Origin: a virus | Length of the DNA stretch: 29,681 bases | IMG/VR virus record: IMGVR_UViG_3300025118_000095 | Coordinates: 1 to 29,681 of that record | Reading direction: 5' to 3' (one strand) | Shown here: one piece after another, positions 2,788 through 29,394 of the stretch | How the letters are laid out: each line of letters opens with the position of its first letter | Numbering within the stretch: position 1 is the stretch's first letter | Made by a program: the position numbers and the translations under genes | Notes under the pieces: model-generated | Databases searched by the model: none | The model's input: the letters and a program-made list of their open reading frames with translations, nothing else | What the model was told of the DNA's origin: nothing

Positions 2788-2788
2788 T

Positions 2789-5700: not shown

Positions 5701-7873
5701 ATTGAGGCTACAAACAAATTATGCTCTACAGAATTTGCCTGAAGCTATACCAACGAAAGAAAGATATCTTTATACAGACGATAAAGACGCCGTGGTCCAA
5801 TGGGAAGCTTCATTTTTAAATGACGACGAATTTTCTTTACCGATAGACTACCGAGTAAGTATCCATGACCCAACATCTTCGACAAGCGCCATGCCCTCAA
5901 CAGAGCTCGCGGATTATATTACAGCGTTTACCGAATTTAATTTCTCATTTGACAGGAACATGTCGATGCCAAACAATAACGGCCCGAAAAGACACTACGA
6001 CTTGGTAGTCCAAGCAATAGACGAAAACGGAATAACTTCTTCCGGGGTAAATCAAGGAACAAACTTCGGCTGGGACATTGTAGAAGTCTTAAACCCCAAA
6101 CCGGTAGGATATTATCTAACGCCCAGACGAAGAAACGGCGTTAACGTGGGTTTACAACTCGGAACGGACAAAACATGGACAGAGCAGTATATAGATGGAG
6201 ATGGGTATGTCCATTTAAATGTTTTATCAAATACCATTCCTGATTTAGCCGGGGGATACGCTTATATTTCTAAACATCCATTTTCTGGAGCAGACTTTAA
6301 TAGTAACGGAAGCCCCAAGACGATTGGACAAAGAAGTCATATAACATTTGGCAGTCAAGAAGAGTTTAAAAAACCAGAGTTTGAAATAACCGAAACCAAT
6401 TTCGAAGCGCCCGCGGGAACAACGTACGGCACATATAATTCAGAGATAGTATTCAAACCCACGGGAATGACAGGATCATATGCTCCCCCCTACCACATGG
6501 GAGTTAAATTTTATGATAGTTTCGATAGGGAAATAAAAAACAATGCTTTAAATTCGACTTGGGACCAAGGAGTCCTAACAAGATCCAGTTCAATTTACGC
6601 TACAGAAGGCCTGTATCTAGCTTTTGGAAGGGACACAACCGGAACAGCGGGCGAAATAATAAAAGAAAATTATTGTTTTACTACGGGAAGCTGCGGAAAG
6701 TACGTGGGTAATCCTGATTTCGGAGGAGCAACAGATTCCTCTGATACCTTTTCCGTAAGGCTCTTGCCCACAAAATATTATAGCGCCAATCAGTCTGCCT
6801 TTAAGTATTGGATAAGGCTAAATATAAATGGCCACTGGGAAGGGCAAGGAATATCGCACGTTAAAGTCTTATCTCAGAAAGACGTAGAAACGGTTTATGA
6901 TTATAAAGGCTTTTTCGAATATTCATGTAAATCAATAGACCTTTTGACAGGGGTAGTTGAGGACGGTATTACATATAATGTATACTACCCCGCCCACCCC
7001 GAAAGCTTTACGAAATGTAACTTTAGGCAAGGATCTCTTTCTTCAAGTTTTCAAATTATAGCAAACACCATTGATGATCCTTATAGGTTAAGATTCTGGG
7101 GAGGTACGACATATTATGAGGGATTACCATTTTATATGGTTACGGGCGCGACCAGACACTTCTTGGGAGACAGCGTGGCTTATTTACCCACCGAGCTTTC
7201 GAGAGCGGGTATAGCACCAGATTACGACATGCACGTGCCGGGTGCGACGAATGAAGGGCTAGACAAAATCCCCTCGTATAATGAAAGGGGCAAAGTTATA
7301 GCTAACAAGTCTAGACCGTTAAGAGGTTTTAGAAGGTTTAGAGTATACTTTGATGAAAACAACTTGCCTCAACCGGCAGACGAGGGCGGGCTTGCATCTT
7401 ACGGCGTTATAGGAATGAACGCTTGGAACGGTGAATATGAGTCTTGGCAAGGCTCACACAGCAAGGCGGGAGAACAACAAATAGATTTATCAAAAGACAT
7501 ATTATTTGCTAAAGACGGAACAGACGTCTTTCCCTCTTCGGTGCAATCTTGGTTGAATAAAGGAGACCTTTTCGAAAATATCCCCGGAGTATGGAACCAT
7601 CATCCAGCTGGATTTGGAGCGGGATTCGGCGGGTTAGCGAAAAGCCAAAAATTCTTTGATGTACATCTAGGCAGAATGATTGACGATAGCTACTTAAATG
7701 AAGGGTTCTTCGGGGTGACGACAACAAATGACTACAGCATAGGTAGTCAAATGGCAAGAGTGCCCATAGGATATACGCAAGATACGGAACTACATGAGGC
7801 AGTATACTCAATTAATCCATACGTCACGGACCCGGATCACGATGGAGAGTTAAAATGGAATGAATACTTATAA
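2789..7873 (+). CDS. Tip attachment / host specificity protein, lambda gpJ-like
   Basis: This 1694-aa protein compares with about 1130 aa for lambda gpJ. The N-terminal part carries the gpJ signature TRSIVKCLDLISEGEIEG (about residues 68-85) and the IYLNDTPI segment. Residues about 455-640 match the central hub domain of the family, with IGRFCDTLVSDGEEG at the start and LLRPGDIVKVTD at the end. Fibronectin-III-like sequence follows (about 810-940, VGYRIYV to YFVRVFAINS). The remaining 700 residues are unfamiliar beta-rich sequence, expected to contain receptor-binding parts. The last 14 residues contain DPDHDGELKWNE (1681-1692), which fits an EF-hand calcium loop. The start is supported by AGAAGG just upstream, one base after the gpI-like stop. 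The hub assignment is firm; the receptor is unknown. Confidence 0.92.
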   Translation: MAVVKNTSRSEGDTQYYGIDTSVVNTEAAELFGSEQIQLFDTPSGFGIMSGDTVFPPGHKYAGTTGWLTTRSIVKCLDLISEGEIEGIVSGEFVPDDDDAYEGQIGWNGGEIKPFTTANPECFLRSIYLNDTPIVNVNNQYNFQQAEIAITNGTPAGVSVDDDFLFIGEDLGLEKTRVINERLRGPDVASDTDLLGEIPAASDEVFHYHSKVYRLLNRDIDKIKVNIKISALTYTKVIIEDEEDMGGGVMKVTQRWPMDDIGQVRGSQLTFKYRYRPIYKDKLGNLDLNTSRGWYGRQGSKPFVSHIKGKVTSPYLHPYIIEVQDKLKTEFLAGWEIEITRVTLDSIESHISNQTYIDSITEVYESVLGYPNAALAAMSFNAEYFSQIPTRAYDVRLLKVKVPGGPGGYDPILRNYNESPWEGDFADEKKWTDNPAWIFYDLLTNKRYGIGKHLGDVEVDKWTLYEIGRFCDTLVSDGEEGFEPRFTCNTLINTKEDAVKVLQDFASVFRSILYYGFGSVHAVCDKPRKEVAQFNNSSVAEGNFTYSSTAKKTIPTVCLVRYNDKDNFYKPAIEYVEHTEGIRKYGVVEKEITAFACTSRTQARRLGRWMLSTELEQTETITFTAGPEAMLLRPGDIVKVTDSNRSEKKYGGRATRAEARSIVLDQGINFKKDTEYELTLTTPTYFYDTSIVDIDSQSYISDFRRSQIQTFNFTTGINDVTASTVVLGEDSTITGSKISWTGDMFIDNSVTDIVDKATWSVTEVNDQTTNLYNVTSTKENDDLSYGIEAIVHSTGKYSYIESGVFYSYLKTPQGITAPPNPASSCSLALKDHPDSPHGFTKRIQITVEPCAGGGSACDTGTTVGYRIYVKPKTDWDPNKDMKKEGGTVPINEWLHETIYLSDQGESEDPISYYIPGRNEQRYFVRVFAINSISVLSSSFVDGQDGVVETPEDLNGIYVFNHYPVKDIKIHSLRLQTNYALQNLPEAIPTKERYLYTDDKDAVVQWEASFLNDDEFSLPIDYRVSIHDPTSSTSAMPSTELADYITAFTEFNFSFDRNMSMPNNNGPKRHYDLVVQAIDENGITSSGVNQGTNFGWDIVEVLNPKPVGYYLTPRRRNGVNVGLQLGTDKTWTEQYIDGDGYVHLNVLSNTIPDLAGGYAYISKHPFSGADFNSNGSPKTIGQRSHITFGSQEEFKKPEFEITETNFEAPAGTTYGTYNSEIVFKPTGMTGSYAPPYHMGVKFYDSFDREIKNNALNSTWDQGVLTRSSSIYATEGLYLAFGRDTTGTAGEIIKENYCFTTGSCGKYVGNPDFGGATDSSDTFSVRLLPTKYYSANQSAFKYWIRLNINGHWEGQGISHVKVLSQKDVETVYDYKGFFEYSCKSIDLLTGVVEDGITYNVYYPAHPESFTKCNFRQGSLSSSFQIIANTIDDPYRLRFWGGTTYYEGLPFYMVTGATRHFLGDSVAYLPTELSRAGIAPDYDMHVPGATNEGLDKIPSYNERGKVIANKSRPLRGFRRFRVYFDENNLPQPADEGGLASYGVIGMNAWNGEYESWQGSHSKAGEQQIDLSKDILFAKDGTDVFPSSVQSWLNKGDLFENIPGVWNHHPAGFGAGFGGLAKSQKFFDVHLGRMIDDSYLNEGFFGVTTTNDYSIGSQMARVPIGYTQDTELHEAVYSINPYVTDPDHDGELKWNEYL

Positions 7874-8604
7874 TGCAAAATAGAACACCCAAACAAATAT
7901 TATTAATAATAATGAAGGACGAGTCTAGATTCACCTATTCCGTCCCTGAAGGGAAGTCCTATTTAGATATTTATAGTTATGTCATTAATTCTGAAGGAGT
8001 CGATCCAAACGAAGTTAAAAGCGTATTATATTTCCCAAATACTTTATACGATATTGAAGAGTTTCAATATTATTACGAAGAAGAGACTAAGACTTTAGAT
8101 GATAAATCAATAGCAATTGACTTTAAGATAGACGAATTCCGTCGACAAAGAGGTTTACTGTTTAAGGCTTTAGACATGCAGTTTATGAGGAGCATGGAGA
8201 AGAAAGACTGCGAAGAGTGCGTGGAAAAGATAACTAGAATTAAAAAGCACCTGAGGGATTTGCCCGATTTACTACCTGATTTCCTGAATAAATATGACAC
8301 AGAAGAAATAACTAGATTTAATGCTTTTAATAATGTATATGATATTGTTATAATAAATGGTGGATCAGGATATACTGAGCCCCCAGAAATCACCATAAGT
8401 GAGCCAGACCAAGAAAACGTCTTGGGGATATCAATGCAAGCAAAAGCAATAATAGAAAACGGAAGCGTAACAGGCGTAGAAATAGCTCGATTCGGTTCAG
8501 GATACAAATCTGCTCCGTCAGTTAGTTTCGCTAAACCCTTAAGCGGTAATACTGCGATGGCTGTTACGGGAGCTCCGGAAAATGATTTGTTTAATTTAAA
8601 ATAA
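7873..8604 (+). CDS. Tail protein with tail-fibre-assembly-like helical segment and GGSGYT repeats
   Basis: This 243-aa protein begins on the last base of the gpJ-like stop codon (TAATG). Residues about 75-140 are helical and charged, with FRRQRGLLFKALD and then KKHLRDLPDL. That pattern resembles the C-terminal Arg-rich helix (RxxRdxLL...LRDLP) of phage tail fibre assembly or DUF4376-like proteins. Residues about 155-240 hold two beta units: INGGSGYTEPPEITI and ARFGSGYKSAPSVSF, each followed by an Ala-rich strand. Such GGSGYT-PP repeats recur in structural proteins of environmental phages. The position right after gpJ suggests a tip accessory or fibre-linked protein. The function is inferred from position and motifs only. 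Confidence 0.7.
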   Translation: MQNRTPKQILLIIMKDESRFTYSVPEGKSYLDIYSYVINSEGVDPNEVKSVLYFPNTLYDIEEFQYYYEEETKTLDDKSIAIDFKIDEFRRQRGLLFKALDMQFMRSMEKKDCEECVEKITRIKKHLRDLPDLLPDFLNKYDTEEITRFNAFNNVYDIVIINGGSGYTEPPEITISEPDQENVLGISMQAKAIIENGSVTGVEIARFGSGYKSAPSVSFAKPLSGNTAMAVTGAPENDLFNLK

Positions 8605-8613
8605 GGATTTACT

Positions 8614-9504
8614 ATGCCACCAATAATGATAAGAAAAAAATATGGATATACAGCCTCGGTTGCGCAAGGAACGAATAAAGTTATCGCCTGCTCTAAGGCT
8701 GACTGGGGAGCTATAAGAGACAACAGCTTCATAACTTTTGAAAGGGATGACGTTTTCTATAAAGTTCTTACTAAAAGGAAATTTTTATATAAAAAGTCAG
8801 TTACTATATTAAATAATACGCAACTTAAAATAAACGAAAACGCTGGAGCGATGCTCGCTGCAGATGACGAAATCTCTTTCTCTTATGACGAATATGAAGT
8901 TAAAGCGGCAAATATAAATAATGGAGGGTCGGGATACGAAGTCGGAGATATTTTAAGCCCGGAGGGCGGAGTATATAAATATAACTCTATTGATGAGCTC
9001 GACGTTCCTGCGCAAGTCACAGTTTCAGAAGTAGATAGCGATGGAAAAATTTTAGAGGCAGAGCTAACAAACCCGGGGGCTTATAACGTCTCGCCAGAAA
9101 ATTCCTGCAATGCGACATCGGGGTCAGGAGAAGGAGCGTCACTATCTTTAACTTGCGGACCGGCAGACGTCTCTCCCATTGAAGATAGGGGAATTGTTTC
9201 GGTAGATTTAAATAGCGATCATACTATAATTCATTTAGACCACTCTCTTCCGCCCAGAATACAAGCCGGAGAAATTAAAACAGAAAAATGGGAGCTTACG
9301 CTGAACATAAATTACGTAGGGGACAGTAAGTTTAGCGCTGGATATGAAATCGTAAAAGACTTTACTCCTAATTTTGATTTACCTTTAATACATTCAAAAT
9401 TAAATTCTAGTTATTTAGTATATAACGAAGCAATGGCTATACTTGACCAAAGAATTAAAGATATTGAAGACAAGTTAAGTTCCGAAGAGAACTTAGGTCC
9501 CTGA
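8614..9504 (+). CDS. Putative tail tip or fibre protein with GSGY-type beta repeats
   Basis: This 296-aa protein has a good ribosome binding site (AAGGA, 7 bases before ATG). Residues 1-100 are beta-rich and unfamiliar. Residues about 105-195 contain NNGGSGYEVGDI, a VDSDGKI turn and NPGAYNVSP, a variant of the GSGY unit found in the preceding gene. A few Cys occur here (SCNA and LTCG). The C-terminus (about 265-296) is a predicted coiled helix, AILDQRIKDIEDKLSSEE, which could trimerise. It is the last gene of the + operon, and its final 12 bases overlap the end of the tape measure gene on the other strand. It may be a short fibre or tip cap; I do not recognise the family. Confidence 0.65.
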   Translation: MPPIMIRKKYGYTASVAQGTNKVIACSKADWGAIRDNSFITFERDDVFYKVLTKRKFLYKKSVTILNNTQLKINENAGAMLAADDEISFSYDEYEVKAANINNGGSGYEVGDILSPEGGVYKYNSIDELDVPAQVTVSEVDSDGKILEAELTNPGAYNVSPENSCNATSGSGEGASLSLTCGPADVSPIEDRGIVSVDLNSDHTIIHLDHSLPPRIQAGEIKTEKWELTLNINYVGDSKFSAGYEIVKDFTPNFDLPLIHSKLNSSYLVYNEAMAILDQRIKDIEDKLSSEENLGP

Positions 9505-12500
9505 AATATTTCCGTCGTATAAGATTCCACCCTGACGTTTTTGATTAACTAGAGTATTTACGACCTCGTTCTTAATAATGGCGGCGAGGTTTCTTCCGTC
9601 TTCTCTATCCATCCCGTTTGAAGAGGTAGTGATCCCTCCCTTTTGATCAATATTAACCGTAATGCTAACATTGTTCGTCGAGCCCTCTGATGCCCTGTCC
9701 AGAGGAGACGCCCCCGGCGCTGGCGTGCCTTTAGCGTCTACGTAGCCGCCGTCGGCATACTTCTTTAACCGTCCAGTATTAAGAGCGTGAAAAAAGTCTA
9801 CTCCATAATTTCTAACCGCATCTGGCCTTACGACATATTCTCCACCCATCAACAAGGAGGGGACGTTGTCGCGACTTTTGTAACCCCCCTGCGCATCGAG
9901 ACCGGGCATCCCACCTTGGTTTCCACCGCCGCCCGGGATGCCCCCTATTGGCCGCCCGACCCCTGCTCCTCCTCGGCCACTAAAGAAATTAGACATTCCC
10001 CTTCCAAATCTATTACCGCTTGTTCCAAACGGAGCGGGCTGATTACCCGGGAACATTGTTCCCAGCGCGGTCATACCCAGCGCCATCAAGAGGGTATTTC
10101 TCATTTTCTTCTTTTTCATTCTATTGAATTCGTCTACCTCATCCTTCCACGCCTGTAGTTCCCGAGCTCTTTCGATCTGGTAATCTAAAAGGCTCGCAAC
10201 TTTATCTGCTCTAATTTGGTTACGAGGATTATCTTCATCCATCAAGGCCTGCCTAGTTAATCTTGGGTCGATGGCATAATGGCTTCCCCCAAGAGTGGGT
10301 TTATCACTATCATAAATAAAAGCGTTTCTCAAATTAAATCGAGCCATCTGACCCGTGTTACCGGCCTGATACTCTGTCAAAGAATCCATTTGCGACTGTG
10401 GATCCCTAGATGGATCGCCCGTAGGAAATCCACCATCAGCAAGGGTAGATGGGTCTTTTCCTTCAGCATTTACGGAATTTAAAAATCCTAAGCCGTATTT
10501 TCTAACCGAAGATTTTCTTATTACGTACTCTCCCTTTTGAAGTAGAGCGGGCACGTCATCTTTTACGCCGCTACCGCCCACGACCATCCCGCCCATCAGT
10601 GCTCTTTTCTTACCCTTCTGAGCCGCGGCCTTCTGGCCCATGGCTCCAAAAATACCTGTTTGACTTGCGATTGCGGCCATGCCACCAAACGCGCCGACAG
10701 AGCCACCAAAGCCGAAGCGCTGGATACCGTCGTTGCCTACGATTCCTCCTTTAGCACCACCGAACATATTTGAAAGGGGATTAAAGATGAACCGGTTTAC
10801 GGCCATCTCAATTAATTGTTTCTGCACCATTTTGCCGATGCCTTCGAACAGGTCACCGAAGGCTTCTCTTGCGTCCTTCGTCCCGTCGATCAATGCTCCA
10901 AATGCGGTGGATACTTCTGACCGGAATTGCTGAGAGACGTTAAACAAGGCGTCTTCCGCATCTCTTTCCATCATATCAGCACTGTATTTCCAGCTTTGAG
11001 CAATGTCAGCAAACGTGTTCTTCATCGAATAAGAGCCATCCTTCTTTCTTTGAAGAGCCTTGGTTCTCGTCCGCATCTTGGCCACTCTTTCGTCTTCGTA
11101 CATAGTCGGATCCAGCTTTTGTAAATCGATTTCTCTATTCAGATCATTAATCTTTGTCGCAAGGTCCGCCCTCTTATTATTGGCCCAGTCCTCCAGAATA
11201 GCCGTACGTCGGGCATCGACGTCTTGGCCTTTTTGTTCTAGCATGGCAAGGTTTCGTAGCTCTTCTACTCTTTTAGCCATGTTGGCTCTTTGCTCACTAA
11301 AGTCCGTCATTCTGGTCAAGGAGTGTTTAAAAACTCCCAAGTCTTTTTCGGCTATATTTAATTGACTATTTAATTTATCCGCGTCCCAATCCATAGCTGA
11401 TTCTCCAAATCGAGCTATAACTTGTTTTTGAATTTCATCTGAAAATGCCCATACGCCAGCGTCTGCGCCAGCAGGTCCTTCCATATCTTTAGTCTCCTTT
11501 TTAAGTTGACCAAGAATTTTCAACTCTGCATCTACCTTATCTTTGTTTCTTTTTAGAGCATCTACGTCTGCATACTTTACCCCTTCAAAATCTTTAAAGA
11601 TATCTTTTTCCAAAGCCATACCGCCTTTAGCTTGAAAGCCTCTGGTTTTATCTGACACACCCCACCTCTTTTGTTGCTTGCCTAAATAAGTTTGATCATC
11701 GAAATCTAATCCCGTATGTGCTCTTTGAGAATAATTAATAAGGTTTCTCTGGCTCCGAAGACGGATTCTTCTCATTTGATCTAACTCTGTATAATGAGCC
11801 CCAGTTTGTTTATCCCTACGCCTCGTATTCAATTGGTTTCGCAGGTTGTTTCTGGTCCCGCCTACAGCCATTTGACTTTTCCAAGGCCGATAGGTTCTGC
11901 TGTCTGAACGGTTTTCGTCTTCACCGAAATCAAAGTTTCCGTACATTATGTCCGTCGGAGTCAACAGTTTGACTTGGCCCGGTTTTAGTGTTTTATTATA
12001 TTTTGAGACCTTGGAAGTTTCTTTGGCGAAATTCTTACCGTAGTTGTTTTTCATATTCAACGTACCGATGTTGAAATCGAACAGCTGACCGAATCCAGTC
12101 TGAGCCTGCATTTTCTCGTTGGCCTTTCTAATGTCGCCATTATTATCCTTGAACCATTTATTTCTCGCTTCGAGAAGTTTTTCTAATTCGTCCGATCTTG
12201 TATCGATATCACCTTCGTACGCGTTAAGCTGCGCCGCTAATTGCTCCCAGTCCTTATCGGTCAAAGACTGGTAAAGGTCAACTCCCGGAGTTTTGCGCTT
12301 ACCATCCTGATCCGACCGGGAGACCCGGGTCGTCCATGTTCCTTGCATTGCGGCAGCTTTAACTTCCGGTCCAGTCATCTTTGCACTCCCCTTCGCGCCC
12401 TTGCCCTCCTTGGCCTTAGCGTTGGCGGCATCAACAATTCTCGGTATTAATTCTGTTCTTAATATTCTCTCTTGGTCCGCGGTCAGTTGATTGAGTGGGT

Positions 12501-15500
12501 GCATCGACATGGTGGCTTTTTCTCTTTCCCAACTCCCCGGAAGCTGGGCCTTGCTCAAGATGCCGCCTCTGCCGCCTCGATTCCTAAATTGTGTGAAGAT
12601 ACCTCCTTCTCTATCTGTTCCAGTTAAGCCGCTATTCGTGGGACCGAGATTCGGGCCCGAGACGCTATGGGATTGCTTGGCTTCATAGCCGAATATTCTA
12701 GCGAGAGCCTTCTGAACATCTATCCGGCTCAGGCTAACCTCTCCATATGTGCCATCTACGGTCCACTCATTTTGGTTGTAACTGGTCTTGCCCCTCTGAG
12801 CCAAAGCTCTCGAAGTCATATGCCCCCCGGGCTTCTGCAGGCCAAATTCTGTGGTACCCTTTCGTAAGAATCCTTTTCGGCCGGGGCCTTGGACAATGCC
12901 TTCAAGCTCCTCCATACTCTTTATCTTCAGGAGGTCTATGCCTTGCGTCTTGAACCAACTATACATTGCCTTTGAATCCACACCAGCCACCTTGCCCGAG
13001 GCGCCACCGGCCATTGAGGCCGCCCAATGTTGAAACCGGCCCTCCATTCCCATTTTTTGCGTTACCGCATTGTCTTTCGGGGACCTAAAATTTTCCGCGT
13101 AGGCCTTCCTAGAGATGCTCCCTTCTCTCAGTACCCTTGCTATGTCTGCGTCCTTGATCATGTCGAATACTTTAGAGCCCCCTTGTTTTATCAGTGCTGC
13201 AGCCTCCTCGTAATATTCATCATCAGTTCTTTTGGGGCCGGGATACTTGTCCAATAAAGCCTTTTCGCCCGCCGGGCCCGGGGCCACCTTGTTGGCCGGC
13301 ATAACGTTGCCACGGCTGCGCAGTGCCTTTTCCTCCACAAGCCATTTTTCCTTATCTCTCATTTTGAGCGCGTCTATTAATACGTCCCCATTTTCCTTGA
13401 GCCATTCTTGTTCTCTTTTGGCTGCCTGTCCTTGGTTCATTAATTCATTTAATATATTAATAGCCTTTACGATCTCGTTAGCGTCAGACGTACCATTCAC
13501 AGCGACGTTGTCTAACTGTTCGCCAGTAAATCTACGATCCTCAAAATGCTGCTTCGACACGTGCTCGGCTTCCGCGTCGGAAATTATCTCCAAATTTCTG
13601 TCCAAATTCGAAAAGTTGGTGTTCTGGTTTTTTGCCCCCTGCTTACCAACAGCATGCATGTTAGCAGACATAGAGTTGCCAACAGCTTGGCTATATTTGT
13701 TAGTTTGGTTGACCCCATCAATATTCTCTTTTCTGAGGTTCATCATATGGTTGTCGGCGGCGATAGCGTCTGCCTTCGCTTGCTCATTGATAGCGGCGGT
13801 GCCTCTCTCGGTTGCGGTAGCCGCATTTGCCCCAGCGTTTACGACAGCTTGATCTAGATTCCCTTGCGCCATGATGATCGCATTTGCGCCCCCCGTTACG
13901 TCTTTAGCAATAGTCTTCTGTCCGGCCACAATCTCACCGGTGTTTTCGCTGTCGGCTTTAACTAAATTATTATTAAATGCGATAATATCACTATTAAAAT
14001 GGTCTGTGATTTTATCTAGCTCTGTAGCTTTAATTGCAGAGATAAATGCTTGCTTGTTATTTTCAAATAGTTCGTTACCTTGAGCGACAATGATGTCCTG
14101 CAAGATCTGAAGTCCCTGATTCATTTCCATCATTTGATCAGGCATCAAATCGAATTTCATTTGCTTAGCCATTTGCGCTGCGGCCGTTTGAGCTATTGCC
14201 TCAGGGTCAGAAGCCTTTTCCAAAGCTTGATAGGCCTTGTCTCCCTCTCCTACTCCTTGAAATTTTAATTGTTTTTTGGCTTCCGCTAACTCCTGCTTGA
14301 TCGTCTCCATCCTTCCCGCCATGCCTATGCCAGCCAAAGCTCCAAAAGCTTCGGGCTGTAGTCTCTCGCCATGAGTGTCCCTTATGTTCATGTTGTTGAC
14401 TAAATGATCCAATAAGGCCGTGGCTGCCCTGCCAGCATCTATCTTGCTTCGTCCGTCGGGCGTGAGTCCTTCTGCTGGGATGCCCCCTCTTTCGACATTA
14501 ACTTTCGGTCCCTTTGGAAGCATCGATCGAATGAGAAAATTCATAGTTTTATTTGTCAGAGCTTCTTGATTGGTTGGAGCCCCAAATCTGCCAATGGATT
14601 GTCCGCCCATTGGTCCTCCGTACGAAGCAATTTTTTCCTGAACAATCAGTGCTTGTTCCTGTAACCGATGTTGGTCTAACAGGATGGTTTTTTGCATTTC
14701 GTTTTCATCAATTAGCAACGACATCTTTTGCGCAAATACTTCTGAAATATCTTTCATTTCTAACCCGATAACTTCAGCCATAAGCTCAGGATTATTTGCT
14801 CCGCCAGTCCTTAACGCCTCTTCTATTTCTCCAAGCACGCCTGACATATCTTTAAACTCTGTGGGTTTTTTCTTTATCTCTCCTAAGTGATCAACCATGA
14901 TTGGCATCAAAGCTTCCGTTAAGGCCATCTGCCTGTTTGTATCTTTCTCTATCGACCTTGTTTGTTCGGCGGTTGGAGCTTTTGCCATATGCCCCTGTAA
15001 TTTTTTTACGGAGTCTAGAAGCTGCTTTTGAGTAACATTAAAGGTTTTATTCATGGCTTCCGTGATAGCCTTCCTTTGATTTTTAACTAGCCCTGCGTTC
15101 ATTTTCATGACCTTTAATTCTGTGTCCATCCGGCCAGTCTCGACTTTACCCATAAAAGGCTTCATTTGATTTATGCCTTCTCCAGCATACATCTCGCTCC
15201 AGTTAAGCCCCATGTCATCTCTACGGGTCTTCATCTTGTTAATAAAGTCTATTCTTTGTTTCTCTAGCTTTATTTCCATGTTCATCTTCGTCATCGTCAA
15301 GTTCGTTGCGTCCTTGATTCTTTTCATTTCGGCGTCATATCTATCATCAATAGCTTTATTGAGTTTGATTATTCTTGCGGCCTCCTCAACGTCCAACATA
15401 TTTTGTCTTAGGTCGGTTAGGGACTTGCCTAGAGATTCCGCAGCTTTTGCTCCAGATTTTGTATTTTCCGCGGTCTTTCTAAATTGTTCGATATACTCTT

Positions 15501-18500
15501 CTGGGACACCAAATGCCCTTAGCTCTTTTACAAACTTTTCTAATTCATTAGCGTCCATATCTGTTCCGATACTAGAAACTAGCGCCTGTAATCCTGCAAT
15601 ATTTTTACCTCCTTCATCTCCCTTCAGCATATCTTTGTCGACCTCTCTACTAATCATTTGAGTATAATCGACTAAATTCTTTTTCCCCGCTGCGCCCTTA
15701 AAGATATCGTCACCCTTTTGCACGCCGAAGTCCTCAAGGAAAGTTCCCTTTAAGCCTTCTTGATCCCAGCCCATCCCTCGCATCGCACCCCGCCCCATGT
15801 CCTGCCACCAGCTGCGTTCTCCACCATAAATTTTTTCCTGATAGTGAGCGGCTCCTGTGGCTATGCGAGATTCGTCAGATAGTGTTTTTGCGGTCTCGTC
15901 AAAGAATTTTTTAATTGATTCTGCGTCTTTTTTAACGTGAGAAAATTGCTGCCTTACATGAGCGGGCATATCCATAAGGGCATCTTCTAAAGCGTCCTTC
16001 CTTTTAGCTAGCTCTTCTGGTTTTATCGTGCTAGACTTCATGCCTTCTTCTAGTTTTTCGAAAGCACCTAGATACTGTTGAGAAGAGTTCTGAAACTGGG
16101 TTAATTTTTCTTTAGCTTCTTCTGCGGTCTTCTTTAACTGTGCCAACGGATCCTTGTATGGACCCATAGCTTGCATTATTCCAATTAATGCTCCTCCGGC
16201 TAATGCGGCTCCAGCAATATATGGGTTACCCGTCATTGCGCCCATCATCGCAAAACTGCCCGCAGTTTCGACTCCTCCTATAACACCTTGAGCTTTTTCA
16301 GAATCTCCAGCTACGGTTCTAGCCATGCCTCCGACCATGGGTAATGCCATCATAGCTCCCATGCCCATACCTTGACCAGCGTTCATTGCTCTGCCTCCCG
16401 CAGTGCCTCCTTGAACGCCCTTTCCTTTAACGACCTGACCGCCGGTCATTGCGGCATTTTTATTATGCGCGGTGGCTTCTGCCTGCTTAGCCGCGGAGTT
16501 TCTCCTACTATCCCTAGCAGATTGACGTGTCGCATTTGTGTTCTCAACAGAGGCTTTGTGTTCTGCTTGCTTCGCCTGAGCCAATGCGCGATCTTTTTGA
16601 GCCTTCGTCTTTGCTTTAGCAATAGCATCTCTTGCTGCTTTTTCTTCGAGAGTTAAAGTTTTCGTGACTTTTTTCTTTTCAGAAATTAATCTTTTATTTA
16701 CTTTTGCGAGCTCTTCCCGATACTCTTTCCTTTCGTCCTTGGTCATCCCCTTTGTATTAACCAGACCGGTGGCGGTACGTCTACTAGCATATTTATCGAC
16801 TCCGGTTGTAGAATCTTTACCCACCAACTTTCTTGCTTCTTTATTTTGCGTGCGGTCAGCTTTACTCTCTGATTTTGTAGCCTTTTTTTCAGCGTCTCTC
16901 GACTCTTTTCCCAATTTCTTTCTATCTTCAAGAGATTGTTTTCTTGCTTCGTTAGCGTCCCTTTCTGCCTTTTCGGTTGCCCCTAGCTCTTCTTGTAATG
17001 TTCCAGCGGCTTTAGATACCTCTTTAAACGATTTAACATTATCATTTATACCCATCGCTAAGAAGCCCAAGCTTCCCGTAATCATGGCCATGTCCATTCC
17101 TGTTGCAAAGTTAGGAATCACTCCATCGTGCCCGAACTTGCTCGTATATCCTCCGCCCCCGCCGAGACGGGCTTGCATTTTTTCTGAATTGTTAAACGCT
17201 TTTTCCCATCCTTCGGGATGATCTCTTTTGACGTCTGCGAGGCTTGCTTGAGTTTTTTTGTCTCTAACGAAATAGCCTATTTTTTTATCAAAGTCGACAA
17301 CAGGATCTCCTCCCATAGCTCTTTCGGTATCCATGGCGGTTTTTAAAGCCTCCCTGTCAGGAATAAATCCTTGGGCCATGAGTTTTATGTTCGATTTTAT
17401 TCCCGCTTTTTGTTCCTGCCTCGCTAGAGTAGCCATTCCTTGGGAGGTTCCTCTAAAATTAGCCTGCATCAATGATTTGATCGTAGCCTGACCCTCTGGA
17501 GTACCAAATAAAATCTTAGTTGCCATCGATTCAATAGAGTGAGGATTGTAACTTCTCTTCGCGTCGGAATAACTACCGAAACTCTCATCAAAAATCTTTT
17601 GAAGATTACCGGCGTCGCTGGGCTGAAAGTCCCATCTGCGATAATCATTTGTATCCTTGTTGAGCCAAGAACTACTTTGTCCTATGGCTGTCGTAATAGA
17701 ATCTTCAAATATTTCTCCCTGTAGGGAGGATGAAATAGTATCGCCAACATATTTTTGAGCTCTCGTTTTTACCCCAGCCTTATTAACCGGTTTTATTTTT
17801 GTTCCTTTGGTTAACATCTTAGAAGTATTTAAGATAATATTCGTATAAGCGTCTGCTAGTTGACTTTTAACTTGCTCTCTAATTCCACTTTGTTTTTCAA
17901 TATCTTTTACTCCCGATACTCCGAAGCTCACAGCAACATTGCTTTTTGATAATCGTTGTGTTAATGAAGTTAGATCTTTCGGAGAAACCTTCATGCCCGT
18001 CCCCTGCATAATCTTTGAAAGCGCTTGGGTGTTACCTCTGGATCCAGCCTGAATTCTTTTGGCTATTGAGTCGCCTCGCATAACATAAGTCTCGGGTCTT
18101 TCCTTCATTCCCGATATATTTTGCGCAACCAACATTTGAGCCTGACTCTTGGTTTGAAGGCTGACCGCATTACCGATATTTCCCCCGGTTCCAATTGCTG
18201 CGACTCCCTTCTTATCTGTCGCTAAAACGTCTTTGTGTCCCATCCGTTGGCGCGCTGCCGGGCGAAAGTTAGGAACAAAGCCTTGATAAAATGGTGCAAT
18301 CCCTCTCTGCTTTTCTCTCAATGCTGCAATTGCATTGTTAGAATCAAATCCTACCTCTCGATTAAATTGATCTAAGCTCGTAACTTCGCCTTCGGTATAT
18401 TTTGCTAATTCTTTGCCCCTATTAGAAATTTCTCTTCCGACAACATGCTGTAGCTTGTCTAAATGTTTTCCAGCAATTTGATCTCCTGCATCCGCTTTTC

Positions 18501-21045
18501 TTTGCAGTCTCATTTTAATTTGCCTAAGAGACTGGCTGTTAGTTTCATACAAGGTCTTTAATAAAATTTGTCCAATTTGTTTAGTCTTAAGTTCCGGCTT
18601 GGCTTCGACACCATAGCTTCTTCCCGTTTTAGATTTAGTGCCGAAGTCTACGGGCATTTTACCCAACTGCCCTTTACCTCGGGGACTTTTAAATTTTTGC
18701 TCCCACGAATAATTGCCTTTCCGTCCGGCAAGAGCTCGCTCTGCTCGTGTACCTTTTTGATGCGCTGCATGCCCTTTTCCTGCTTTACCGACCTCTGCTT
18801 GGGTTGGCTGTGCAAGCTGTCCCATGGTTTTAATTGCTACTTTTTCTCCGGGACGTAAAGCTGAAGTAAGAACTCCTTGTAGCCAAGCAGGGACTCCCTG
18901 ACTTTTAATAAGCTGTTCTCGGGTAGCAGTTAACATATCCTGCATCCGGCCAGTTGGTCCTTGACCCTTCCTTTCAAAAGAGGTTCTCATTGAAGTCAAA
19001 ACTCCTAAAAGATTAGGTATGAATCCTTCATATCCGAGCTTGCCTGTATATCCTCCTCCTCCGAGGCGCGCTACGTCGGTACCATAAGGATCAAACCCGT
19101 GTTTATCATAAAATTTCTTTTTATATGTTTTTCCGGCATCGCTGGGCAGACCAGTTCTTTCGTCTATTTCTGGAGGCATAATAGCCGGATTCACCATCCC
19201 CGCAAATTGTTTCACCTGTTCAGCGTCGTTATACTTGACCATTCCTTCGCCCTTAAGGAATGTTTTCTGAATATCTCCCGGCTTATAACCCGCAGCGTAA
19301 GCGCCAAGGAATTCTTGCATGTCACTGAAGTTAGGAACAAAGCCAGCATATTTCCTAGATGATTTATGAGTGAGTCTCGTCGTGCCCGCTCCCTTATCAA
19401 TATCTACGCCGAACCCTGCAGCTTGAGCTCGAGCGCCAGAACCTGTTGCTAATGATGCGATTTGCTCTCTTAATAGAATTTCTTGTTTAAGGGCGTCTAG
19501 GACTTTTCTTTCGGCATCAACGCGAGAAAGCTCTCCTCGATTAATTTGAGCGATTAAATCGGGATTCGCAGACATAGCGGCGTGGATTTGCTGTTGTAGC
19601 GCAGCTTGTTGCGAGGCGTTCTTATTTAGGTTAGCAAAGTCAGCGACAGATTTAGTTAAGAACCTACTAAAGTCAATAAATAATTTGGCGACAATTGTTC
19701 CAAGAGCCACGAAGCCCGGACCAGATATAAAGTTACCAATTGACTTCATAATGTTACCAGCTAAATCGCCGCCGAATTTGTTTGCGTCGTCTTCATCGAA
19801 TCCCAAGAAAGCGCCTATGTCTCCAAAGATATTTACCTCTTTAGTTAAGGAGTTAAATCCTTCCAGAAGCTTTCTAAACATCGGCTCGAAAGTAATCTCT
19901 CCCACTTGAGCACCAATGCCCGTTAAATTTTGTACCGTCTCATTAATTAACGCGGAGAGAGTTTTATTTAACTCCCGGTTTCTTTGAATAGCTTCGTCAG
20001 TAGAATTATTGGAGATCGCTAATGCTCCTGCATAGGCAGAGTGTTCGTTTTTTAAGTCTTTAAGAATAGACTTTAAGATGTTCATTTGATACACGCCACC
20101 AACTAGCTCTGCAGTTTGAGCTTTTATCCTCGGGTTCAGAGTATCATAAACCTTGGAAAATTCTCCCAGAACTACCATAGCCGGGCGCATATTTCCTTCA
20201 GCGTCTCGGACAGCTACCCCTAGTTGTTGTAGCTGAGATACTACTTCTGTACGCTGGATTCTGGTGAATATAGTTTTAAGTGAGTTACCTATAACATTAC
20301 CACCCCGAGCGGTGGTTTGTTGAACTGAGGTAACTACTGCAATTAATTCATTAAAGTCGACCTTAACGTCTTCCGCACTCGCTCCCACACGCCTAATAGC
20401 TTCAGCTAAGTCACCCGTACTAACGGCAAAGGCAGCATCAACGTTAGCCATTTTATTAATAATCTCAGTAGAAGTTAACGCGGTTTGGCTAAAACTGTTG
20501 ATAGCAGCAGTTAAAGCGTTCACCGCTGCGGTCGTGTCCATTCCAGAGAGTCGAGTTAATATAAGAGCGTCTCTCGTCCGAAGGAGCGTTTTCTCCATAG
20601 ACAAGCCCTGTCGGGCAAATTCAGTAGCCGCTGTAGCGACCTCCCCAAAACTTTGTCCCGTCTCTTTGGCTACATTAAATAACTCACCACCAAATTTTTT
20701 AAGATTTTGACTTGAAGCACCCAAGATAACGTTAATATCTTTAAGCTGTTTCTCTACGTCTATAGTGGCCTTGGCCATTTCCGTAAAGGCCCTAGTTACG
20801 CCCATCAATATTCCCGCAGAAGCGGTAAAGGCTATGACACGAGCGTTGGAAGCTTCGAGCGATTTATGAAATTCGGAAACTGAACCGGTAATCTTCCCCA
20901 GAGGTTGGGTAAATTTTCTATGGTCAATGCCTTTAAGGTTTATTTGAGACCGTTCGGCTTTTTTTGTAAAACGAGCCAAGTCTTTTTCGGCTTTGTCAAG
21001 CCTTAGCCTCAGTTCCATTGTTACGCTGTCGTCTCTTCCTGCCAT
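9493..21045 (-). CDS. Giant tape measure protein with embedded nuclease-like cargo block
   Basis: At 3850 aa this is over four times lambda gpH (853 aa). The start has a Shine-Dalgarno-like AGGG-AAAAGG. Residues about 60-420 match the conserved phage tape measure domain (FGEVATAATEFARQGLS, VGASAEDVKVDFNELI, GGNVIGNSLKTIFTRIQ). A hydrophobic stretch follows near 440-465. Residues 568-1313 are a block punctuated by five GF(V/I)PN-like motifs with two PD-(D/E)XK-like segments. A Lys/Glu/Ala-rich coiled coil (about 1340-1530), hydrophobic helices (about 1550-1620) and long helical or unfamiliar regions come next. Near 3380-3440 lies a gpH-type C-terminal segment (AFGALIDGTKDAREAF). Two copies of a D-VP-LL-GEYV-R-VR-YG motif follow (3496-3526 and 3726-3756). 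I found no cysteine in the whole protein. At about 0.15 nm per residue the tail would be about 570 nm, or about 465 nm without the block. Confidence 0.95.
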   Translation of the reverse strand: MAGRDDSVTMELRLRLDKAEKDLARFTKKAERSQINLKGIDHRKFTQPLGKITGSVSEFHKSLEASNARVIAFTASAGILMGVTRAFTEMAKATIDVEKQLKDINVILGASSQNLKKFGGELFNVAKETGQSFGEVATAATEFARQGLSMEKTLLRTRDALILTRLSGMDTTAAVNALTAAINSFSQTALTSTEIINKMANVDAAFAVSTGDLAEAIRRVGASAEDVKVDFNELIAVVTSVQQTTARGGNVIGNSLKTIFTRIQRTEVVSQLQQLGVAVRDAEGNMRPAMVVLGEFSKVYDTLNPRIKAQTAELVGGVYQMNILKSILKDLKNEHSAYAGALAISNNSTDEAIQRNRELNKTLSALINETVQNLTGIGAQVGEITFEPMFRKLLEGFNSLTKEVNIFGDIGAFLGFDEDDANKFGGDLAGNIMKSIGNFISGPGFVALGTIVAKLFIDFSRFLTKSVADFANLNKNASQQAALQQQIHAAMSANPDLIAQINRGELSRVDAERKVLDALKQEILLREQIASLATGSGARAQAAGFGVDIDKGAGTTRLTHKSSRKYAGFVPNFSDMQEFLGAYAAGYKPGDIQKTFLKGEGMVKYNDAEQVKQFAGMVNPAIMPPEIDERTGLPSDAGKTYKKKFYDKHGFDPYGTDVARLGGGGYTGKLGYEGFIPNLLGVLTSMRTSFERKGQGPTGRMQDMLTATREQLIKSQGVPAWLQGVLTSALRPGEKVAIKTMGQLAQPTQAEVGKAGKGHAAHQKGTRAERALAGRKGNYSWEQKFKSPRGKGQLGKMPVDFGTKSKTGRSYGVEAKPELKTKQIGQILLKTLYETNSQSLRQIKMRLQRKADAGDQIAGKHLDKLQHVVGREISNRGKELAKYTEGEVTSLDQFNREVGFDSNNAIAALREKQRGIAPFYQGFVPNFRPAARQRMGHKDVLATDKKGVAAIGTGGNIGNAVSLQTKSQAQMLVAQNISGMKERPETYVMRGDSIAKRIQAGSRGNTQALSKIMQGTGMKVSPKDLTSLTQRLSKSNVAVSFGVSGVKDIEKQSGIREQVKSQLADAYTNIILNTSKMLTKGTKIKPVNKAGVKTRAQKYVGDTISSSLQGEIFEDSITTAIGQSSSWLNKDTNDYRRWDFQPSDAGNLQKIFDESFGSYSDAKRSYNPHSIESMATKILFGTPEGQATIKSLMQANFRGTSQGMATLARQEQKAGIKSNIKLMAQGFIPDREALKTAMDTERAMGGDPVVDFDKKIGYFVRDKKTQASLADVKRDHPEGWEKAFNNSEKMQARLGGGGGYTSKFGHDGVIPNFATGMDMAMITGSLGFLAMGINDNVKSFKEVSKAAGTLQEELGATEKAERDANEARKQSLEDRKKLGKESRDAEKKATKSESKADRTQNKEARKLVGKDSTTGVDKYASRRTATGLVNTKGMTKDERKEYREELAKVNKRLISEKKKVTKTLTLEEKAARDAIAKAKTKAQKDRALAQAKQAEHKASVENTNATRQSARDSRRNSAAKQAEATAHNKNAAMTGGQVVKGKGVQGGTAGGRAMNAGQGMGMGAMMALPMVGGMARTVAGDSEKAQGVIGGVETAGSFAMMGAMTGNPYIAGAALAGGALIGIMQAMGPYKDPLAQLKKTAEEAKEKLTQFQNSSQQYLGAFEKLEEGMKSSTIKPEELAKRKDALEDALMDMPAHVRQQFSHVKKDAESIKKFFDETAKTLSDESRIATGAAHYQEKIYGGERSWWQDMGRGAMRGMGWDQEGLKGTFLEDFGVQKGDDIFKGAAGKKNLVDYTQMISREVDKDMLKGDEGGKNIAGLQALVSSIGTDMDANELEKFVKELRAFGVPEEYIEQFRKTAENTKSGAKAAESLGKSLTDLRQNMLDVEEAARIIKLNKAIDDRYDAEMKRIKDATNLTMTKMNMEIKLEKQRIDFINKMKTRRDDMGLNWSEMYAGEGINQMKPFMGKVETGRMDTELKVMKMNAGLVKNQRKAITEAMNKTFNVTQKQLLDSVKKLQGHMAKAPTAEQTRSIEKDTNRQMALTEALMPIMVDHLGEIKKKPTEFKDMSGVLGEIEEALRTGGANNPELMAEVIGLEMKDISEVFAQKMSLLIDENEMQKTILLDQHRLQEQALIVQEKIASYGGPMGGQSIGRFGAPTNQEALTNKTMNFLIRSMLPKGPKVNVERGGIPAEGLTPDGRSKIDAGRAATALLDHLVNNMNIRDTHGERLQPEAFGALAGIGMAGRMETIKQELAEAKKQLKFQGVGEGDKAYQALEKASDPEAIAQTAAAQMAKQMKFDLMPDQMMEMNQGLQILQDIIVAQGNELFENNKQAFISAIKATELDKITDHFNSDIIAFNNNLVKADSENTGEIVAGQKTIAKDVTGGANAIIMAQGNLDQAVVNAGANAATATERGTAAINEQAKADAIAADNHMMNLRKENIDGVNQTNKYSQAVGNSMSANMHAVGKQGAKNQNTNFSNLDRNLEIISDAEAEHVSKQHFEDRRFTGEQLDNVAVNGTSDANEIVKAINILNELMNQGQAAKREQEWLKENGDVLIDALKMRDKEKWLVEEKALRSRGNVMPANKVAPGPAGEKALLDKYPGPKRTDDEYYEEAAALIKQGGSKVFDMIKDADIARVLREGSISRKAYAENFRSPKDNAVTQKMGMEGRFQHWAASMAGGASGKVAGVDSKAMYSWFKTQGIDLLKIKSMEELEGIVQGPGRKGFLRKGTTEFGLQKPGGHMTSRALAQRGKTSYNQNEWTVDGTYGEVSLSRIDVQKALARIFGYEAKQSHSVSGPNLGPTNSGLTGTDREGGIFTQFRNRGGRGGILSKAQLPGSWEREKATMSMHPLNQLTADQERILRTELIPRIVDAANAKAKEGKGAKGSAKMTGPEVKAAAMQGTWTTRVSRSDQDGKRKTPGVDLYQSLTDKDWEQLAAQLNAYEGDIDTRSDELEKLLEARNKWFKDNNGDIRKANEKMQAQTGFGQLFDFNIGTLNMKNNYGKNFAKETSKVSKYNKTLKPGQVKLLTPTDIMYGNFDFGEDENRSDSRTYRPWKSQMAVGGTRNNLRNQLNTRRRDKQTGAHYTELDQMRRIRLRSQRNLINYSQRAHTGLDFDDQTYLGKQQKRWGVSDKTRGFQAKGGMALEKDIFKDFEGVKYADVDALKRNKDKVDAELKILGQLKKETKDMEGPAGADAGVWAFSDEIQKQVIARFGESAMDWDADKLNSQLNIAEKDLGVFKHSLTRMTDFSEQRANMAKRVEELRNLAMLEQKGQDVDARRTAILEDWANNKRADLATKINDLNREIDLQKLDPTMYEDERVAKMRTRTKALQRKKDGSYSMKNTFADIAQSWKYSADMMERDAEDALFNVSQQFRSEVSTAFGALIDGTKDAREAFGDLFEGIGKMVQKQLIEMAVNRFIFNPLSNMFGGAKGGIVGNDGIQRFGFGGSVGAFGGMAAIASQTGIFGAMGQKAAAQKGKKRALMGGMVVGGSGVKDDVPALLQKGEYVIRKSSVRKYGLGFLNSVNAEGKDPSTLADGGFPTGDPSRDPQSQMDSLTEYQAGNTGQMARFNLRNAFIYDSDKPTLGGSHYAIDPRLTRQALMDEDNPRNQIRADKVASLLDYQIERARELQAWKDEVDEFNRMKKKKMRNTLLMALGMTALGTMFPGNQPAPFGTSGNRFGRGMSNFFSGRGGAGVGRPIGGIPGGGGNQGGMPGLDAQGGYKSRDNVPSLLMGGEYVVRPDAVRNYGVDFFHALNTGRLKKYADGGYVDAKGTPAPGASPLDRASEGSTNNVSITVNIDQKGGITTSSNGMDREDGRNLAAIIKNEVVNTLVNQKRQGGILYDGNISGT
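17371..18282 (-). other. PD-(D/E)XK-like nuclease segment 2 within the tape measure (residues 922-1225)
   Basis: This is a second candidate domain, between the third and fourth GF(V/I)PN motifs. The first part (922-1090) is basic and unfamiliar. The second part has LQGEIFEDSI (E1111, E1114), RRWDF (D1139) and YSDAKRS (D1161, K1163), which matches the pattern E, then D, then D-x-K. The 22 residues between the two Asp are long for the fold but tolerated in some families. It is not obviously a duplicate of segment 1, so the block may carry two different nuclease-like domains. Activity is not shown. Confidence 0.45.
18283..19026 (-). other. PD-(D/E)XK-like nuclease segment 1 within the tape measure (residues 674-921)
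   Basis: This is a domain call inside the tape measure, not a separate gene. The pattern KGTRAERAL (E769), then MPVDF (D800), then YGVEAKPE (E814, K816) has the order and spacing of a PD-(D/E)XK nuclease core: a helix Glu, a strand Asp, and E-x-K 14 residues later. A basic helical part follows (KTKQIGQILLKTLYE, then RQIKMRLQRK). It is bounded by the second and third GF(V/I)PN motifs. Other explanations are a degenerate, non-catalytic fold or chance. The acid and Lys residues are seen; nuclease activity is inferred. Confidence 0.5.
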
Positions 21046-27051: not shown

Positions 27052-29394
27052 TCAATTGCAATCGGTAAGATAGCACCCGACTGCTTTCCTCTGTCCTTCC
27101 ATAAAGTGCGCCTGAGTGAAATTATATGAACCTTTATAATTTTTAATCCGGTAGCGGTCACTTTGATTACCGATCGCGTCTTCGTCACGATAGGTTCCCG
27201 CGAGCCCCCATGTGATTTTGTCGATTGCGGTCACTTCGAGCACTTCCCATCTTCCTGATGCCGAAAAAGAGGCGGTATTCAGAGAGACGAAAAATCTAGC
27301 CTTACCAGCATTTCCTGCTTTCGGCACTCTTCTGAGCGCATTTGTTGGGTGGAATTTAAAAGCTGGGAGACTCCACCAAACATTTTGAATAGAGAAAAAG
27401 GTCCACTTCGCGCCTCTCACCCAACTTACGGGTTTTGCCCATGGGGTGGGATTATTTGCACCGGGCTTGCCTCCCTGTGCGTCAAACCAGCCCGGATTGT
27501 CGGGGCAGTAACGTATAGTTCTTATTCTATATACGACCGTATTGTCCGCTCTCATTATGGTTGGACCATTGACAACGCGTAATTCCCCAGCATTACTGAT
27601 TACTGTGTTTACGTTTCCTAAGGGAGGAGGCCCTCCTCCTCCGTTAGATACCCTACATTTATAGGTACCGCTATGCACTACTTGAGGATTCAAAATAACC
27701 AGAGTTCTATTCGTTGCCCCGGCGATACGCGCACCATTTTTATACCATTGATATCTTAGTGGCATCCCACCAGCCGCCACGGTCGCGGTGACAGAAATAG
27801 TAACTTGGTTGCCCACGCCCCCGCCAAGGCCTAGGGCGTTCCCCCGCAATACAGATAGTTTATTGCGCGGTTCGGTATGAAAAGGATGTTTGATAATTAC
27901 TGGCATGGGAACCGGAGGGAAACAAATCGGATTAAATGTCCCAACACTTCCTCCGCTGTCTTTCGCACAGTCACAGCGCCCGTCAATACCCGACCATGAT
28001 GTTTTCGGCGCAGCCCCAAAATTGTTGCCGGGCCTTGCGAGCCTATAAAAATTCGTATAGAAAGCAACTCGTAGCCGAGTTGGCCGTGGAGGCCCGCTCA
28101 GCCTGATCCCACCCGGTGGTACATTTGGCCAATAAGCCCTCCAGTTACCGCTACCCCGCGGAAATTCTCTAAGACCATAATAAGCTAACAGTTTAATTTC
28201 GTCAGTCGGACAATCAACTACTCTTACTTCGAAGCATTTACCGTTGGCAAAATACCAGAATTTATTATTATGAAATTTAAAAAGGTTCACGTGAAAAGCG
28301 TCTGCCCTAACCCGCCGAACCACCATTTTTCCCGAAGAAATACATAGGTTAATGGGTAATTTAAACGCTGGATTAGCATAGTTGTTTATTTGATCTACCC
28401 TGCTACAACCGTCTGCCCTACCGGCTTCAGAGACAGCAATTATAAAATCTTGTAAACAGGGAGAACAATCTTCATAGTGGACATATGATGTATCATAGGT
28501 TGTTTGATCTATCCACTGAATACTTTTCAACGTATCTCCGGGCCCCGTCTTTGGACCCCGAGGAATCGCTGCATAAGTATAACAATGTGGCCAATCTACT
28601 CTGAGGCTGCTTCTACCCGCTTGCCTCGTTTTAAAAGGGTGTGTCATCCTCGGCCAATTAGTCGGGTTCGCTGGGTGCTGAATGACTCCCCCTGCCGGAA
28701 AATTAAATGTATTTGCTGTTTCTAAATATAATCTTTTCCTACCGCTTTTGTAGGTGCTACCACAAGCGGTACATGGTGTTAGTTGCCAATATTTAGGGCA
28801 ACGTACTCCTTGTGCCAAATACATCGCACCGTCAGGTCTCGGGGGATATTGCGCGGCAGAAATGATCGGAGGGCACTGATATGTCGGCCAGTCTTCAGCG
28901 GGTATTTGAAATACAAACTCTTTATAATACTTCATTAATCCCCAGCGCTCGGGGTGCCATGTTTTATTGTGATGCTGACCATTAACCCATTGATTTAAAA
29001 GTACCGGAAGGTTCCGCGGGTCCATTGGAGGAAGCCTTTTAATTCTCCACCAGTTTGTGCGGGTAATTAAACCATTTAACCAAACTTTTGTATAAGGAAG
29101 CCCAACGCCCAGATTACCGTCTATCCCTCCAGAGGGATGAGTACCTGCCCTCGGATTAGATGGATCGTTATATTTATGGACACATCCGACATATTGGGTT
29201 CCTGTAGGGTCACCCGTAAGCGTGTCTATATTACCATTTATTCGAGCGCATTCGCTATCCAACTGAGCAGCCATCGTTCCATAACGACAATTCATCATTG
29301 CAGAGAACTCATAAATACAAGACACAGTAACTGGAGGCCCCGGATTAGGCGGGGCATTACAAGTGTTCATATTTCTGGTTTCGAAACTATGCAT
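27052..29394 (-). CDS. Large Cys- and Trp-rich virion-type protein with an Ig-like domain
   Basis: This is a 780-aa protein with 23 cysteines by my count, many in pairs (CTAC, CSPC, CDC), and many Trp and Pro. Residues about 515-610 form an Ig-like domain with YQWYKNGARIAGA (W550), an SGTYKCRVSN F-strand (C580) and PPLGNVNTVIS. The usual B-strand Cys is replaced, so the standard disulfide is absent. The rest is unfamiliar. No signal peptide or membrane segment is evident, and no ribosome binding site precedes either the first ATG or the Met at residue 9. It lies upstream of the neck genes, so it may be a capsid or neck decoration or a whisker-like adhesin. Ig domains on phage virions commonly bind cell-surface sugars. 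The Ig call is firm; virion location is inferred. Confidence 0.75.
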   Translation of the reverse strand: MHSFETRNMNTCNAPPNPGPPVTVSCIYEFSAMMNCRYGTMAAQLDSECARINGNIDTLTGDPTGTQYVGCVHKYNDPSNPRAGTHPSGGIDGNLGVGLPYTKVWLNGLITRTNWWRIKRLPPMDPRNLPVLLNQWVNGQHHNKTWHPERWGLMKYYKEFVFQIPAEDWPTYQCPPIISAAQYPPRPDGAMYLAQGVRCPKYWQLTPCTACGSTYKSGRKRLYLETANTFNFPAGGVIQHPANPTNWPRMTHPFKTRQAGRSSLRVDWPHCYTYAAIPRGPKTGPGDTLKSIQWIDQTTYDTSYVHYEDCSPCLQDFIIAVSEAGRADGCSRVDQINNYANPAFKLPINLCISSGKMVVRRVRADAFHVNLFKFHNNKFWYFANGKCFEVRVVDCPTDEIKLLAYYGLREFPRGSGNWRAYWPNVPPGGIRLSGPPRPTRLRVAFYTNFYRLARPGNNFGAAPKTSWSGIDGRCDCAKDSGGSVGTFNPICFPPVPMPVIIKHPFHTEPRNKLSVLRGNALGLGGGVGNQVTISVTATVAAGGMPLRYQWYKNGARIAGATNRTLVILNPQVVHSGTYKCRVSNGGGGPPPLGNVNTVISNAGELRVVNGPTIMRADNTVVYRIRTIRYCPDNPGWFDAQGGKPGANNPTPWAKPVSWVRGAKWTFFSIQNVWWSLPAFKFHPTNALRRVPKAGNAGKARFFVSLNTASFSASGRWEVLEVTAIDKITWGLAGTYRDEDAIGNQSDRYRIKNYKGSYNFTQAHFMEGQRKAVGCYLTDCN

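Follow-up and report, generated by a model that had tools for sequence, protein, structure and literature searches.

Tape measure gene and its motif array

The window, by which we mean the whole stretch of DNA analysed here (a 29,681-base IMG/VR contig), encodes on its minus strand a protein of 3850 residues (ORF 9493-21045). Its N-terminal domain, great length and position in a tail gene block identify it as a tail tape measure protein: Pfam places a PhageMin_Tail domain at residues 126-311 (E 7.7e-26), and PHROG tail length tape measure families match the ORF with a best E of 5.8e-51. The conserved N-terminal tape measure domain spans residues 1-567 (19345-21045; this and all further features of the gene lie on the minus strand) and is 35-62% identical to its counterpart in 28 other tape measures. 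Residues 1314-3850 form the tape measure body (9496-17106), with a weak PHROG tape measure match at residues 2950-3540. The two most hydrophobic stretches of the protein, residues 439-464 and 1608-1628, are possible membrane-inserting segments.

Tail genes are co-directional as a rule. Here, lambda-like minor tail, tail assembly and central fibre J genes adjoin the tape measure gene on the opposite strand (106-9504, plus strand), converging on it with a 12-nt overlap. Further along, positions 27052-29394 (minus strand) encode 780 residues in which Pfam recognises an immunoglobulin-like domain (Ig_3, 1.1e-7); the product may be a tail-tube or head protein bearing a decoration. None of the minus-strand ORFs lying between this gene and the tape measure gave a credible Pfam or PHROG match.

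A block of repeated motifs, G-F/V-V/I-P-N/D, punctuates residues 568-1313, between the N-terminal domain and the body. Residue 568 starts at position 19344 and residue 1313 ends at 17107, exactly where a previous reading of the sequence alone had placed the block. The motifs are GFVPNF at residues 568-573 (19327-19344), GFIPNL at 674-679 (19009-19026), GFVPNF at 922-927 (18265-18282), GFIPDR at 1226-1231 (17353-17370) and GVIPNF at 1308-1313 (17107-17124). That reading counted five GF(V/I)PN motifs; five are indeed present, but only three are exact, the other two being the one-residue variants GFIPD and GVIPN. From the composition of the whole protein one would expect 0.0017 strict motifs (three are seen) and 0.009 loose ones (five are seen), and none of 2000 shuffled versions of the protein contained more than one loose motif. 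The motifs fall in low-confidence stretches of an AlphaFold2 model of the whole block.

At the DNA level, motif copies within one gene share 58% of synonymous codons against 50% expected, with a positive difference in 93 of 122 genes. The sharing is slight, so the motif appears to be held mainly as protein, with at most mild homogenisation of the DNA. Its glycine codons are about as variable as glycine codons elsewhere.

The motifs delimit four intervals, S1 to S4. The two short ones, S1 (residues 574-673; 19027-19326) and S4 (residues 1232-1307; 17125-17352), lie at both ends of the array and bracket it in most of the family; S1 has homologues in the great majority of relatives. They fall in one sequence cluster and their profiles cross-match. 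In the AlphaFold2 block model both are predicted as a helix followed by a β-hairpin, with pLDDT of about 80-90 (78-90 for S1, 83-89 in the core of S4). S1 ends in the linker ARLGGGGYTGKLGYE (19027-19071) and S4 in ARLGGGGGYTSKFGHD (17125-17172). Both had been taken for short intervals with a shared linker: the linker ARLGGGG(G)YT.K.G does occur at residues 659 and 1292, and nowhere else in the protein, but the intervals are related α-β-β modules rather than mere linkers. Its two copies are also alike in DNA (43 of 56 nt, 77%), and none of the related tape measures checked has it. This points to a lineage-specific linker and to copying from one end of the window array to the other. The idea of a family-wide ARLGGGG linker was dropped: among the sequences checked it is unique to the window.

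Relatives were sampled from IMG/VR using a profile that covers the N-terminal domain and S1. The search returned at least 523 relatives, all metagenomic contigs, from which the best 80 were kept, ranked by similarity to a query whose first sequence is the window. They yield 74 near-full-length distinct tape measures, the window included. Three to ten motifs occur in 70 of these 74, a proportion to be read with the profile in mind, whose rows came from motif-bearing genes; exactly four are found in 44 tape measures, five or more in 18, three in eight, and one or two in four. No motif lies beyond residue 2600 in any of the 74. The punctuated layout, for which the sequence-only reading had called for a survey of tape measures, is family-wide. 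In the commonest layout, the N-terminal domain is followed by S1, a nuclease-like core, S4 and the coiled-coil body, all separated by motifs; the window has the same order with S2 added between S1 and S3.

A DNA scan of viral contigs for stretches encoding GFVPNFA gave at least 120; among the matches listed, nearly all that were translated lie in long tape-measure-like frames, mostly with two to nine motifs. In cultured phages, even the nearest relatives of the N-terminal domain reach no more than about 28% identity, and none was found to match the cassettes: tblastn against 50,697 phage records gave no match, and queries with cores of 77 and 89 residues returned chance matches only or none. 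Matches in genome collections came mostly from contigs of metagenome-assembled genomes (MAGs) of various phyla, and chance binning of phage contigs may well account for them; host assignment was therefore dropped and no host is claimed.

Two cassettes with nuclease-like residue patterns

The S3 cassette (residues 928-1225; 17371-18264) was found by profile searches to hold the nuclease-like core that recurs throughout the family. In the window this PD-(D/E)XK-like core covers residues 1109-1179 (17509-17721), including G1110, F1113, E1114, D1139, D1161, K1163 and K1177, with the signature GEIFE1114...WD1139F...D1161AK1163...K1177. An iterated profile search started from the window S3 recovered it as a 73-residue core in 51 non-identical cassettes. 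In the set selected by the N-terminal domain, 63 of 74 tape measures carry it, and its place between S1 and S4 is as a rule the same. There, G1110, E1114, D1139, (D/E)1161, K1163 and K1177 are kept in 65 of 65 core copies, in an alignment whose columns average only about 15% identity. The same positions are nearly invariant in the separate set of 51 cassettes (E in 49/50, D in 46/52, D/E in 50/52 and K in 50/52). With dN/dS between 0.10 and 0.58 (median 0.26, 32 pairs), the core is under purifying selection. Pfam contains no family matching S3. Among the other 295 genomes sampled from the phylum of the Flavobacteriales MAG, none contained the core, which is therefore not a common cellular domain in that phylum.

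The S2 cassette (residues 680-921; 18283-19008) carries its own signature, KGTRAE769...PVD800...VE814AK816...Q826. It also occurs in four contigs beyond the window (L134, L135, L136 and L214), in the same order as in the window where the contig is long enough (L134/L216, L135/L215, L136/L013/L122 and L214). E769, D800, E814 and K816 are invariant in the five copies, and Q826 is kept in four, L214 being the exception. L214 (IMGVR_UViG_2716884425_000003, 136.5 kb) is the longest relative with the S1-S2-S3-S4 order, and its S2 is 62% identical; it would be the best genome in which to study context. No S2 turned up in 289 genomes from another phylum, which were searched without a positive control. 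When profiles of S2 and S3 were compared, they aligned only at the terminal motif; lacking profile similarity beyond it, the two are not shown to be duplicates. S2 would be a second PD-(D/E)XK-like cassette, apparently unrelated to S3, that the window phage has gained.

Both cassettes present E, D, (D/E)xK and a later K or Q in this order, so that each large interval does hold the PD-(D/E)XK-like signature first noticed there. The residue patterns are those of PD-(D/E)XK enzymes, and nuclease activity is putative. This phosphodiesterase superfamily includes the type VI secretion effector domain PoNe (PMC6688995). S2 and S3 share with it the order and type of these residues, but neither their sequences nor their models detectably match any member described so far.

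Modelled alone with AlphaFold2, S3 gave a pLDDT of 73.6 and a pTM of 0.69. The predicted order is a helix bearing E, a short strand bearing D, a helix, a strand bearing DxK and a helix bearing K, without a complete sheet. The model of the whole block is weaker (pLDDT 61.7, pTM 0.38), with S2 at low confidence. Foldseek found no significant match for either model in the PDB, nor for the S3 model in BFVD; a profile search of PDB sequences gave nothing credible. A likely reason for this weak outcome is that the alignments behind the models were shallow, with 46-48 rows. Of the proposal that the intervals are nuclease-like, and of the two ways in which it might have failed, the residue side holds: homologues retain the acidic and lysine residues (65/65 for S3, 5/5 for S2). 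The fold side does not yet follow, as the AlphaFold2 and Foldseek results recover no nuclease fold.

Cassette exchange at the motif

Across 140 distinct tape measures we delimited 484 intervals. The nuclease-like core is present in 91 of these tape measures; of the remaining intervals, 183 exceed 90 residues, and these are spread over 66 tape measures. Pfam matches in array slots are to a Staphylococcal nuclease (SNase, E 2.2e-9), a PcfJ domain (1.3e-6), a cytidyltransferase-related region (3.2e-8) and, in four members, a GNAT acetyltransferase (2.1e-5). The first is a clear nuclease cassette within a tape measure (L054:8742-9362), and the PcfJ-like domain lies at residues 1371-1474 of the stretch L196:11607-16652. 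That homologous arrays hold recognisable enzymes supports the reading of the block as a punctuated region of modular cassettes. Sequence motifs among the 183 cassettes provide leads rather than family assignments: nine HAD-type, nine P-loop, five SNase, four zincin-like (HExxH) and two credible kinase-like glycine loops. The nuclease-like core is missing from eleven of the 74 near-full-length tape measures, mostly ones whose arrays have five to ten motifs with other cassettes.

Related phages gain, lose and swap cassettes exactly at the motif. Over most of the array, the tape measure genes of L083 and L098 agree at 91-98% of their DNA positions, and L098 lacks two cassettes; the alignment breaks off and restarts at motif codons. 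These clean single-cassette losses (L083:3587-8446), one of them of a P-loop type of 167 residues, amount to a natural deletion experiment. Between L014 and L086, one unit is swapped and both joints lie at motifs. L076 and L111 share a 1555-nt block that is 100% identical and bounded by motifs, with diverged flanks (nt 2490-4044 of the L076 tape measure ORF), a candidate for very recent transfer. Over all pairs, 193 de-duplicated alignment ends, some still from overlapping pairs, lie at a median of 3 nt from a motif; 83% are within 20 nt, compared with 16% for random positions. Assembly chimerism is an unlikely source of the exchanges, since the joints recur over many contigs at 80-98% identity; for the single identical block of L076 and L111 it is possible. 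A survey of phage protein mosaicism did not confirm genuine recent mosaicism in tape measures (PMC10684548), and the exchanges seen here would be cases of it.

A proposed payload ahead of the genome

The tape measure of this siphophage-type virus is rather likely also a carrier of exchangeable, virion-borne enzyme cassettes that are ejected into the cell at DNA entry. The motif array, its conservation in the family, the retained catalytic-type residues, the purifying selection and the exchange at motif boundaries are direct observations; the carriage and delivery are reconstructed as follows. Downstream of the N-terminal domain, S1 and S4 would bracket a series of motif-separated units. The standard payload would be one PD-(D/E)XK-like nuclease, S3, to which the window phage adds S2; some relatives would carry SNase, acetyltransferase, HAD-like, P-loop, zincin-like or kinase-like units instead.

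In phage 80-alpha the N-terminus of the tape measure is at the neck (PMC11661146), and in lambda the C-terminus is at the tail tip (PMC10721106). If the window protein is arranged likewise, its cassette block would be head-proximal and would exit after the coiled-coil body. It would probably be the last part of the tape measure to leave, directly ahead of the DNA. The sequence-only reading supposed that the cargo could reach the cell first: arrival before the genome agrees with this analogy, but arrival ahead of the rest of the tape measure does not. Once ejected into the infected cell with the tape measure as the DNA enters, the nucleases may cut nucleic acid there, be it host or competitor DNA or nucleic acid related to defence. 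The resident prophages and plasmids named by the sequence-only reading are conceivable targets. Since the units of relatives range over SNase, GNAT, HAD-like and kinase-like types, a payload serving takeover or anti-defence in general fits better than the breakdown of host DNA alone. The motif itself may serve as a flexible hinge, a docking site or a cleavage site between units.

The last of these options leads to a distinct though compatible account, which we regard as possible but doubtful: the array is a polyprotein in which a protease cleaves at the motif and so frees the units from one another, either during assembly or once they are injected. The motif is short and hydrophobic, sits in low-confidence linkers and is conserved mainly as protein, as its modest codon sharing indicates. 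A few arrays also hold HExxH zincin-like cassettes, reminiscent of the processing peptidases of polyvalent proteins (PMC5512222). However, these cassettes are rare (4 of 183) and no protease was identified in the window. Moreover, if the N-terminus binds the neck, the tape measure has to stay continuous as far as the neck.

A structural or assembly role is improbable. The core would then be a degenerate or metal-stabilised fold that, with no enzymatic effect on nucleic acid, helps to assemble the tail, pack its lumen or serve the neck. The nuclease fold is unconfirmed by AlphaFold2 and Foldseek, and a core so common and so regularly placed between S1 and S4 resembles a structural part. Against this, the positions that do not vary are mainly E, D, (D/E)xK and K, whereas the remainder of the core drifts. 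The eleven relatives without the core mostly carry other cassettes, recognisable enzymes among them, which argues that it is dispensable for building the tail.

Tape measures are late structural proteins, and PD-(D/E)XK domains could act before they are enclosed. We nonetheless think it quite unlikely that the enzymes work in the producing cell, late in infection and before assembly (in degrading host nucleic acid, for example), with carriage in the virion incidental: replicating phage DNA would be at risk from an active nuclease attached to a tail protein, and a free enzyme would serve better.

Least of all do we expect the nuclease cassettes to be selfish in-frame elements that spread, like homing endonucleases, by cutting cassette-less alleles at motif-coding DNA: insertion and excision do occur exactly there and motif copies share codons slightly above expectation, but slots of this kind also take HAD-like, P-loop and GNAT cassettes, purifying selection acts on the main core, which is close to fixation, and the variable glycine codons leave no constant target site, which is at odds with the sporadic, self-spreading insert and fixed target that define a homing endonuclease or intein.

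The payload reading has its closest parallel in the polyvalent proteins of phages and conjugative elements, multi-domain enzyme arrays for which entry together with the DNA has been proposed (Iyer et al. 2017, PMC5512222). Common to both are arrays of disparate enzymes: nucleic-acid-directed, protein-modifying, nucleotide-acting and zincin-like domains. Several disparate domains per polypeptide are found in the family, whereas both recognisable cassettes of the window are nuclease-like. A zincin-like peptidase, frequent though not universal in polyvalent proteins, is suggested by HExxH in those four other cassettes, and none was recognised in the window. PMC5512222 mentions neither tape measures nor the motif; the window array lies inside a tape measure, is bracketed by S1 and S4 and has a fixed, repeated joint. 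Delivery into the host with the DNA, as proposed for polyvalent proteins, is here inferred from tape measure behaviour.

The Sle1-type effectors of contractile injection systems are likewise tape-measure-related scaffolds with interchangeable functional domains, one of which is inferred to act on nucleic acids (PMC13277306). They belong to bacterial injection systems, however, their variable part is C-terminal, and no motif-punctuated internal array is described for them. The tape measure of mycobacteriophage TM4 also has a built-in enzymatic segment, a peptidoglycan hydrolase motif (PMC1796659); as far as that account describes it, this is a single wall-cutting motif, with no exchangeable array and no nuclease. 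A text search of open-licence papers found no biological use of the motif and no prior description of the array.

When phages inject helper proteins, these are as a rule virion proteins in their own right. Here the tail's ruler itself seems to hold a swappable array of enzymes, and to do so in hundreds of uncultured phages. For this large uncultured family of tailed phages, our judgement is evenly balanced on the fullest form of the payload reading: the tape measure may be a reloadable magazine, in which one motif serves as both protein hinge and recombination joint, for the delivery of first-strike or anti-defence proteins just ahead of the genome, the window being loaded with a pair of nucleases. 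The joint sequence offers a handle for finding more cassettes: any motif-bounded interval may encode an anti-defence or host-takeover enzyme, and most of these candidates belong to no known family. Such arrays would challenge the view of tape measures as only coiled-coil rulers with an occasional wall-cutting domain.
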